In this document: positions 29,656 to 32,590 of the stretch, in pieces
How the letters are laid out: the number at the start of each line of letters is the position of its first letter
How positions within the stretch are numbered: position 1 is the stretch's first letter
Assembly: GCF_013391475.1 (NCBI RefSeq)
Contig: NZ_JACBAZ010000006.1
Coordinates: 124,001 to 188,000 of the forward strand
Origin: Oceaniferula marina
GTDB taxonomy: Bacteria; Verrucomicrobiota; Verrucomicrobiia; Verrucomicrobiales; Akkermansiaceae
DNA length: 64,000 nucleotides
Reading direction: 5' to 3'
Notes under the pieces: generated by a model
Told to the model about the DNA's origin: nothing
Database searches by the model: none
Seen by the model: the letters and a program-made list of their open reading frames with translations, nothing else
Translations under genes and position numbers: made by a program

Positions 29656-30156
29656 ATGAAACTGAACCCATCCCCCTGTTTATCCACCTGCTCCATGGGA
29701 GCCATGGTGGCCCTATTGGTTTCGCCTCTGGCTCTGGCCCAAGATAAAGCCGAAGCACCTGCCAAAAGCCAAGCCGAGGAAAAGTCGACACCGAACAAGC
29801 CGAGCTTTCAATCCGTGACGGTGGAAGAGCTCCAGTCCGCAGTGAAAGCGGGCAAGGTGGCCGTGATCGATGTCAATGGAGTGAAGTCCTATAATAAGGG
29901 ACATGTGCCTGGCGCGATTCACTTTGCTACGGAAAAAGAGAAACTCGCCGAAAAACTACCAGAGGACAAGAGCACCCTAGTGGTCACCTATTGTAGTGGC
30001 CCTCAATGATCTGCTTGGAAACGGGCTGCGGTCGCAGCCAAGAAGTTGGGATACACCCAAGTGAAGTATCTTGAGGCCGGTATTCAGGGGTGGAGAAAAG
30101 CAGAGGCCGAGACGGAAACGGGGGATTTGCCCGTGCCTGAAAATAAGAAAAAATAG
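29656..30156 (+). CDS. Exported rhodanese-like protein, probable selenoprotein (in-frame TGA at 30007-30009)
   Basis: Read through the TGA, this is a complete 166-residue rhodanese domain protein. A signal peptide (residues 1-28, ending LALA) and an Ala/Lys/Glu linker precede the domain: VTVEELQSAVKAGKVAVIDVNG, KSYNKGHVPGAIHF, LPEDKSTLVVTYCSGPQ, then TGA (residue 118), then SAWKRAAVAAKKLGYTQVKYL and GIQGW (142-146), ending at TAG. Rhodaneses of this type, as I remember them, read YC-x-x-P-x-CSA, so the TGA replaces a cysteine. Cys113 and the TGA residue form a C-x4-U pair. TGA is an ordinary stop in other genes here (for example rnhB and btuD). A SECIS-like hairpin follows. A conventional annotation would end at 30009 as a truncated 117-aa protein. 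The alternative is a recent nonsense mutation. Confidence 0.8.
30007..30042 (+). promoter_or_regulatory. Bacterial-type SECIS element candidate
   Basis: Fourteen nt after the TGA, GGCTGC (30024-30029) pairs with GCAGCC (30034-30039) around a GGTC loop (30030-30033). CTTGG (30014-30018) can pair with CCAAG (30038-30042) as a lower stem in an alternative fold. The E. coli fdhF SECIS upper hairpin has the same GGUC core and a nearly identical stem, 11 nt after its UGA. SelB would bind this loop to deliver Sec-tRNA. Confidence 0.75.
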
Positions 30157-30207
30157 CAGCCGAAGCCGAATGGACAGGCGCTGCCTGCCATTGGCCCATC
30201 GACAGGG

Positions 30208-30622
30208 TTATACCATTCTCCCAGTTAAATGGGCTGAATGGTTTGAGTTTAAGGTGATGAGTCAGTCAGCAAGCTGAATGGCAAGGGGGCACTGAATCTT
30301 ATAGATTTTATACCACTCCGCAAAACAGACGAGACGATTGATCGTTGTTGAGGTATGTGGAAAAGCACTGCGTGATCCATGAGAATTCCGGATGAATGAC
30401 TCCTTTGGCTTTGTTTCTCCTTAGTCATGGTGCCCGCACCATTCCTTCGTCGCGCCTTACCAAAGAACTCATTCATCTCGGCTATCGTCCCGTCTGTTTT
30501 ACTACTTGGTTTTACCGTTGCTGCGCGTCGGTTGCATAGCCCGCTATGCGCCTTCCTTGTGCCTAGTTAAAATCGAAAACTTTCAGTGCCATTCAGCCAA
30601 TTTAACTGATCAAATGGTATTA
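30208..30622. mobile_element. 415-bp non-coding element with 34-bp imperfect terminal inverted repeats
   Basis: The ends 30208-30241 and 30589-30622 match as inverted repeats at 28 of 34 positions, sharing the core AGTTAAAT-GGCTGAATGG. Inside, GCTGAATGGC recurs at 30273, an inverted pair GCATAGC/GCTATGC forms a hairpin near 30534-30549, and no transposase or convincing ORF is present. The right end supplies the stop codon of the ABC-F gene (TTA at 30620-30622). It fills the gap between the rhodanese and the ABC-F gene. It looks like a MITE, but no clear target-site duplication is visible. Confidence 0.5.
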
Positions 30623-32590
30623 CTCGCCGAGTTCTTCGCTGACCTGTTCAATCTTGGTATTGAGCTGGTCCCAGCGGGTGTAGGCATGTTCGAGTTTTTC
30701 TCCGAGCGCCTGGTAGGCGTGGGACGCCTGTTGGAGTTTTTCGGCATCGGCCGCGACTTCGGGCTCTGACATATGCTGGGTGAGGGCAGCCTGGGCCGCT
30801 TCAAACTCAGAGATGTTTTCTTCAGTTGTTTCGAGTTCTTTCTGAAGGGGACCGAGGATTTCCTTCCGTTTGCGGCGTTGTTCGGCTTCGAGTTTCCGTT
30901 GTTGCTTACGGTTGCCCGATGCCGCGGCTCCTGCGGTCTGGGTGTTGGGTGCGGTTTTATTTTTCACCGCTTCCGCTTGTTTTTCCTCTTCGCATTTCTC
31001 GAGGTAATAGGAAATGTTGCCGGCATACATCCGAGGGGGGCGCCCTTGGCGGAACTCGAGGGTTTTCGTGACGATGGAATCGAGGAAGGATCGGTTGTGG
31101 GAGACGATTAAAAACGAGCCCGGGTAATCTTTGAGCGCATTTTGCAGAACCTCCTGAGATTGGATGTCAAGGTGGTTGGTCGGTTCGTCCAGGATCAGGA
31201 AATTGGCCGGGCGAACCAGCATGCAGACGAGGGCAACCCGGGAGCGTTCTCCTCCGGAAAGCACGCCGATGCGCTTGAAGACGTCATCGCCACGGAAGAG
31301 GAAACACCCCAGCAGGTTCCGGGCATGTGGCGCCATCTCCCGGGAGGCTGCCCGCTCCACGCAGTCGAGCACCGTCAGGGTGGCGTCGAGTTCGTCGGCG
31401 TGGTTCTGGGAGAAAAACGAGACGGCGGCTTTGTGGCCCAGAGTGTAGGTTCCGGCATCGGGTGCTTCCTGTCCGGTGATGAGTCGGCAGAAGGTTGATT
31501 TGCCGGCACCGTTGGGGCCAACGATGGCGATGTGTTCGCCGCGGGTGATTTCGAAATTGAAGTCCTTGAAGATCGAGATGTTGCCGTAGGCTTTATCCGC
31601 ACGTTCCAGCATGGCCACGCTGTGGCCGGAGGCCGGGGGCTCGGGAAAGCGGAAGTTCATCACGGAGTCGTCATCTTCGATGGTGATGAGTTCGATTTTT
31701 TCGAGCTGTTTGATTCGGCTTTGAACTTGTTTTGCCTTGGTGGCTTTGGACCGGAAGCGGTCGATAAACTCCTGGGTTTGTTTGATTTCGCGTTGCTGAG
31801 CTTTGTATTGCTTGACCAGGATTTCTTTACGCAGTGCGGACTCCTTCATGTAGAACGAGTAATTGCCGGCGTATTCCTCCGCCCGGCCGTGGTGGAAGGC
31901 GATGGTCCGGGTGGTGAGCATGTCGAGCAGTGCCAGATCGTGGGAAATGATCAGGATGGCACCGGGGTAGTTGACCAGGTAGTTCTCCATCCACTTCTGG
32001 GAATCGATGTCGAGGTGGTTCGTGGGTTCGTCCAGGAGCAGAACTTCTGGCTGTTGCAGTAGGAGTTTGGTGAGTGCGATACGCATTTGCCATCCTCCTG
32101 AGAACTCACCGCAGTCGCGGGTGAAGTCGCTCCGTTTGAATCCAAGGCCGGCGAGCACGGATTCTATTTTCGGTTTAATTCTGCCGGGGTCGGCGTCGTG
32201 GAGTTTGAGTTCCAGGTCGCCGATTTCATGCAGCAGGTCGGAATACGGAGCGGAGCGGGGGTCGAGTTGTTTAAGTTGCTCGGAGAGTTCGTCGATGTCC
32301 TGTTGCAGGGACTGGGTTTCGGCGAAGGCGGATTCAACCTCATCCCAGAGGCTGATGCCTTTGATGTGGATGCCTTCCTGGGGAAGGTAGCCGATCTGGC
32401 AATGCTTTGGTTTGACGATTTGGCCACCACTGGGTTCGATGATGTTGGCGATACACTTCATCAGGGTGGATTTGCCTGCGCCGTTGTGGCCAGCAAAGGC
32501 GATACGCTCCTTGGTCAGGACGGTAAATGACAGATCCTTAAAAAGCACCCTGGCACCGTATTCGACGTGGAGATTTTGAATGGCAAGCAT
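30620..32590 (-). CDS. ABC-F family ATPase (Uup/YheS-like)
   Basis: A 656-residue cytoplasmic ABC-F protein with two ATP-binding cassettes and no membrane domain. The first cassette has Walker A GHNGAGKST, signature SGGWQMR and LLLDEPTNHLD; the second has GPNGAGKST, SGGERSR and LILDEPTNHLD. Between them is the P-site interaction linker (KEILVKQYKAQQREIKQTQ). The C-terminus (about 545-656) is a charged coiled coil (RKQQRKLEAEQRRKRKEIL and on). Such proteins bind the ribosomal E site or act on ribosome assembly and stalling. ATG 32590 (MLAIQNLHVEYG) is preferred over 32626. The stop codon lies inside the terminal repeat of the 415-bp element. Confidence 0.93.
   Translation of the reverse strand: MLAIQNLHVEYGARVLFKDLSFTVLTKERIAFAGHNGAGKSTLMKCIANIIEPSGGQIVKPKHCQIGYLPQEGIHIKGISLWDEVESAFAETQSLQQDIDELSEQLKQLDPRSAPYSDLLHEIGDLELKLHDADPGRIKPKIESVLAGLGFKRSDFTRDCGEFSGGWQMRIALTKLLLQQPEVLLLDEPTNHLDIDSQKWMENYLVNYPGAILIISHDLALLDMLTTRTIAFHHGRAEEYAGNYSFYMKESALRKEILVKQYKAQQREIKQTQEFIDRFRSKATKAKQVQSRIKQLEKIELITIEDDDSVMNFRFPEPPASGHSVAMLERADKAYGNISIFKDFNFEITRGEHIAIVGPNGAGKSTFCRLITGQEAPDAGTYTLGHKAAVSFFSQNHADELDATLTVLDCVERAASREMAPHARNLLGCFLFRGDDVFKRIGVLSGGERSRVALVCMLVRPANFLILDEPTNHLDIQSQEVLQNALKDYPGSFLIVSHNRSFLDSIVTKTLEFRQGRPPRMYAGNISYYLEKCEEEKQAEAVKNKTAPNTQTAGAAASGNRKQQRKLEAEQRRKRKEILGPLQKELETTEENISEFEAAQAALTQHMSEPEVAADAEKLQQASHAYQALGEKLEHAYTRWDQLNTKIEQVSEELGE

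Follow-up and report, generated by a model that had tools for sequence, protein, structure and literature searches.

A putative selenocysteine at the far end of the active-site loop in a predicted exported rhodanese of Oceaniferula marina

A gene of Oceaniferula marina encodes a rhodanese, predicted to be exported, with an in-frame UGA codon (30007-30009) that is very probably decoded as selenocysteine (Sec). Several lines of sequence evidence bear on Sec insertion, namely the Sec machinery encoded in the genome, the exchange of TGA and Cys codons among relatives, a SECIS element, selection downstream of the codon and the fold of the product, and all the tests that were run came out in favour of it. 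The predicted Sec is the last residue of the active-site loop and does not coincide with the rhodanese catalytic cysteine, which would make this a new arrangement among rhodanese selenoproteins, one in which a loop residue takes the selenium and the catalytic Cys stays.

The window analysed here is a stretch of 64,000 nucleotides (C6:124001-188000) from a 5.07-Mb genome that is 97% complete, and positions are those of the window unless a contig is named (Table 1). Translation from the ATG at 29656 on the forward strand gives MKLNPSPCLSTCSMGAMVALLVSPLALAQ...VTYCSGPQ-TGA-SAWKRAAVAAKKLGYTQVKYLEAGIQGW...KKK-TAG, that is, 117 residues, then the TGA, then 48 residues up to the TAG. An initial annotation of this DNA had claimed that the frame runs past the TGA for 48 codons, completes a rhodanese domain and ends at TAG, and translation and Pfam both agree: the readthrough product gives a single Pfam Rhodanese match over residues 55-148 (E 1.2e-18) with the TGA inside its span, and it belongs to PF00581 by a score above gathering, with the catalytic Cys and the fold present. 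It had also expected a standard annotation to truncate the protein, and under the standard code the open reading frame does stop at 30009, after 117 residues; in this lineage, standard annotation would drop the C-terminal part of the protein. The AlphaFold model has a pLDDT of 91, and its best solved structural match is BH2092 of Bacillus halodurans (3nhv). Export is predicted from signal-like N-termini, judged by eye: the TGA genes, including the four orthologues described below, begin with a positive start, a hydrophobic core and an AxA-type site.

Table 1. Features of the putative selenoprotein gene (window positions)
Feature	Position	Strand	Remarks
Putative selenoprotein gene	29656..30156	+	166-residue rhodanese, predicted to be exported, with Sec118; stop TAG 30154-30156
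Predicted signal peptide	29656..29739	+	residues 1-28, ...SPLALA|QD; by inspection
Rhodanese domain PF00581	29818..30099	+	TGA inside the domain
Catalytic rhodanese Cys113 (TGT)	29992..29994	+	invariant
TGA, predicted to be read as selenocysteine 118	30007..30009	+	loop C-S-G-P-Q-U
Putative bSECIS hairpin GGCUGC-GGUC-GCAGCC	30024..30039	+	apical loop 20 nt after UGA

A reading of UGA as Trp or Cys, through a suppressor tRNA or a change of code, would account for the open frame and nothing further and has next to no likelihood. Of 51 long open frames in the window, 17 are terminated by TGA, an argument against a code change and in line with the earlier statement that TGA is a normal stop elsewhere; moreover, the genome contains tRNA-Sec, SelA, SelB and a selD with its own TGA, and a SECIS element follows the codon. 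Strong hairpins also follow the window TGAs at 1945, 19181 and 62555, which have the look of ordinary stops and may be combined with terminators; when the sequence after the TGA at 1945 was read, no obvious coding extension was seen.

The initial annotation had named selA, selB, tRNA-Sec and selD as the genes to look for, and a genome without this machinery as the finding that would speak against Sec; all four are present. The scores are 515 bits for selA, 306 bits (above cut-off) for selB and 375 bits for selD, while the tRNA-Sec lies above the Rfam gathering score and is called by ARAGORN as tRNA-SeC with the anticodon tca (UCA). The selD gene (L018 1501-2421; G000:C1:756478-757398) has one in-frame TGA, which falls at the SSAAG-U-AAK active site, so that UGA decoding appears to be needed for selenophosphate synthetase itself, which is probably a selenoprotein in O. 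marina. SelB scores above cut-off in all seven genomes with a TGA rhodanese gene, and selA is found in each of the five such genomes tested; four of six genomes with a Cys gene are without selA.

Among relatives, the column of Sec118 holds either Cys or TGA. Within 80 loci of the contig set, which were found by a profile search after a plain protein search of the same set had returned no homologues, the codon at this column is TGC or TGT in all 77 Cys homologues and TGA in the other three, which are orthologues already counted among four Akkermansiaceae relatives. Those four genes carry TGA at the same codon (in genomes G110 and G012, in Rubritalea profundi SAORIC-165, G073, and in Persicirhabdus sediminis KCTC 22039, G014), and their products are 42-54% identical to the window protein over the full alignment and are thus not near-copies. 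TGA also stands at this column in two genes from another family of the same class (L162 in G277 and L161 in G422). Sequence beyond the column is intact and conserved. The proposal that TGA takes the place of a conserved cysteine holds, the column being Cys in 77 of 77 Cys homologues; this cysteine is distinct from the catalytic Cys113, which is retained. Two loci first taken as TGA homologues (L163 and L164) were set aside because the TGA is their ordinary terminal stop; in the rhodanese at C1:83387 the TGA is likewise a normal stop, and L165 was discarded as a decayed copy. The Akkermansiaceae Sec forms (window 30010-30039, L022-L025) carry Trp three residues behind the Sec, a position held by Tyr in most Cys forms; in the same segment, an Ala-Ala-Val-Ala stretch coincides with the hairpin codons.

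A bacterial SECIS element is a stem-loop just 3′ of the UGA with a G in a small apical loop (PMC1088965), and such a structure follows the UGA of the window gene. In the five Akkermansiaceae TGA genes, the TGA is followed by 15 nt and then by GCTGCGGTCGCAG, which folds with an apical GGUC loop, and the 13-nt core of the hairpin (30025-30037, GCUGC-GGUC-GCAG) is identical in the five species. By a single rule applied across the window, five more TGA positions have both open frames and a hairpin, so a hairpin after a TGA is by itself within chance and proves little. Comparison across species places the conservation of TGA plus hairpin beyond chance: the core codons GCT GCG GTC GCA are the same in all five TGA genes, none of the 17 other columns with a shared degenerate amino acid keeps a single codon throughout the five, and the exact probability of this split (4/4 in the core, 0/17 elsewhere) is 1/5985. 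The Cys genes are without the hairpin core, and the window gene is the single place in its genome with the hairpin-plus-TGA pattern. Covariation (one compensatory change, one G-U change and one unpaired cell) adds little because the four core pairs never vary, and the folding z-score for the single sequence does not stand out. The apical loop is GGUC in the E. coli fdhF bSECIS as well, where, as read from the genome, it lies 18 nt after the UGA as against 20 here; the fdhF stem has a bulged U, whereas the hairpin here has six perfect pairs and no bulge. The genes of G277 and G422 have a different hairpin-like sequence, GCGGCCCGTGCGGCC, with weaker support.

A truncated pseudogene, with the TGA as a true stop or the product of a sequencing error, is very improbable, even though a single base change turns TGC into TGA and R. 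profundi has a second copy of the gene that did decay. That copy (L165, G073:C1:3513697-3514038) keeps the TGA, but its catalytic Cys has become Tyr, the hairpin is gone and TAA and TAG stops lie downstream; it is best described as a second Sec rhodanese copy in decay, beside an intact main copy. Against truncation stand the recurrence of the same TGA in seven separate genomes with the downstream domain intact in all, and the fact that five of the seven TGA genes show both selection and an identical hairpin. For the 28 codons after the TGA, with the hairpin codons left out, dN ranges from 0.22 to 0.47 across the ten pairs of the five TGA genes, whereas synonymous changes have reached or nearly reached saturation in most of them, which indicates that the sequence after the TGA is translated and under purifying selection. 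Relatives with the same TGA and degraded sequence behind it had been named as the outcome that would undo the Sec reading; what the relatives have instead is an intact, selected downstream region and a conserved hairpin, with the second R. profundi copy as the one exception.

The five Akkermansiaceae TGA genes form a clade (94/83). On the best tree the seven TGA genes require two changes, but the AU test does not reject a single clade (p 0.46); this tree included the hairpin-encoded columns, and these may draw the five TGA genes into one group. Sec may have been gained once or twice, and the genes of G277 and G422, with their different hairpin, may represent an independent gain.

A conserved operon or gene neighbourhood was sought around the TGA gene and its relatives but was not found, and the surroundings offer no pointer to a substrate. 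Directly 3′ of the gene lies a palindromic element (window 30207-30623) with 35-nt inverted ends, whose core of about 205 bp (30308-30514) has at least 40 more copies in the genome at 94-100% identity; to judge from these copies it is a high-copy mobile or structural repeat. The window also holds a cobalamin riboswitch (RF00174, 41256-41422, 35.9 bits).

Within the six-residue active-site loop, Cys113 is the first residue and Sec118 the last (CxxxxU), and this second chalcogen, Cys or Sec, is as invariant as Cys113, so that C-x4-C/U is kept throughout the Sec and Cys forms. Very probably SelB, guided by the GGUC hairpin at 30024-30039, delivers Sec-tRNA(Sec) to the UGA at 30007-30009, and the 166-residue product, with its signal-like N-terminus, would then cross the inner membrane. 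In the favoured mechanism, Cys113 would accept sulfane sulfur from a donor such as thiosulfate, polysulfide or persulfide; Sec118 might attack the Cys113 persulfide or take over the sulfur, with sulfide freed or the sulfur passed on, and a Cys113-Sec118 selenenylsulfide would be left behind. This could be reduced by an extracytoplasmic thiol system, for example the DsbD of the genome, a homologue of which is encoded (DsbD_N, DsbD_TM and a thioredoxin domain), although nothing ties it to the rhodanese gene. Such a mechanism, with a persulfide on Cys113 that Sec118 resolves or accepts, is tentative and falls somewhat short of an even chance. The combined proposal is rather doubtful: a C-x4-U subfamily of Verrucomicrobiota, in which Sec was possibly gained twice, acting as an extracytoplasmic persulfide reductase by way of a Cys-Sec selenenylsulfide.

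The protein may equally be a selenoprotein that is no sulfurtransferase at all, and its Cys113 and Sec118 would turn the rhodanese scaffold into a thiol-disulfide oxidoreductase or into an enzyme that reduces peroxide or selenite. The presence of two loop chalcogens in Sec and Cys forms alike, in an invariant C-x4-C/U, fits such a function; TsoB joins a rhodanese of the same loop spacing (UxxxxU) to a DsbD-like part, and uncharacterised selenoproteins are mostly thought to be redox proteins (PMC13188914). Set against this is the full retention of the rhodanese fold and of the catalytic Cys. We consider this a serious possibility, if one that is a little below even, and a thiol oxidoreductase or peroxidase and a sulfurtransferase are equal rivals between which the sequence does not separate. 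Related bacteria offer natural Sec/Cys pairs, two of the Sec forms being in named strains, so that the value of selenium at the second loop residue of a rhodanese is directly testable. The gene is also evidence of Sec use in Verrucomicrobiota; the main text of four selenoprotein surveys and reviews (PMC13188914, PMC9312934, PMC2398784 and PMC12013277) does not name this phylum. The term "CxxxxU" together with "selenoprotein" was not found in the open-access papers searched, though unpublished annotation may exist in NCBI protein records.

That rhodanese selenoproteins are known as a class, as the initial annotation stated, is borne out by a 2026 inventory with five forms, namely UxxS, UxxG, CxU, UxxG and UxxxxU (TsoB), by whose rule proteins that share a domain but differ in their Sec motif count as separate subfamilies (PMC13188914). 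CxxxxU is absent from the rhodanese forms in Table 1 of that inventory, and the predicted Sec position would be new among the forms listed there, with TsoB as the nearest. Forms 1, 2 and 4 (UxxS, UxxG and UxxG; PMC13188914, Table 1) are predicted bacterial rhodanese-domain selenoproteins too, but their motifs start with U, which we read as Sec at the catalytic Cys, and they are set apart by motif alone. Form 3 (NF041203, CxU) resembles the window protein in having a single rhodanese domain, a retained Cys and a Sec close behind it, but there the Sec comes two residues after the Cys and here five; the window protein is not a member (41 bits, where the cut-off is 115; CxxxxU, not CxU). TsoB (NF045694, form 5) is a rhodanese that by its motif has a Sec five residues after the first Sec, and it is the best NCBIfam match (E 1e-12, over the rhodanese part only). 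Its model has 572 positions, is rhodanese/DsbD fusion-like and has two Sec, whereas the window protein stands alone, with 166 residues, one predicted Sec and the catalytic Cys kept; membership was rejected, the score of 47 bits lying far below the cut-off of 805 and the DsbD-like part and second Sec being absent. The Cys rhodaneses of Verrucomicrobiota and Planctomycetota (YCGGPxCxAY) are homologous, with a signal-like N-terminus where this was read, but have Cys at the Sec column, no SECIS and, mostly, Tyr in place of the Trp three residues on. The closest solved fold, BH2092 (PDB 3nhv and 3o3w, with titles that name no function), is a Cys form with 29% identity and has a C-x4-C loop likewise.
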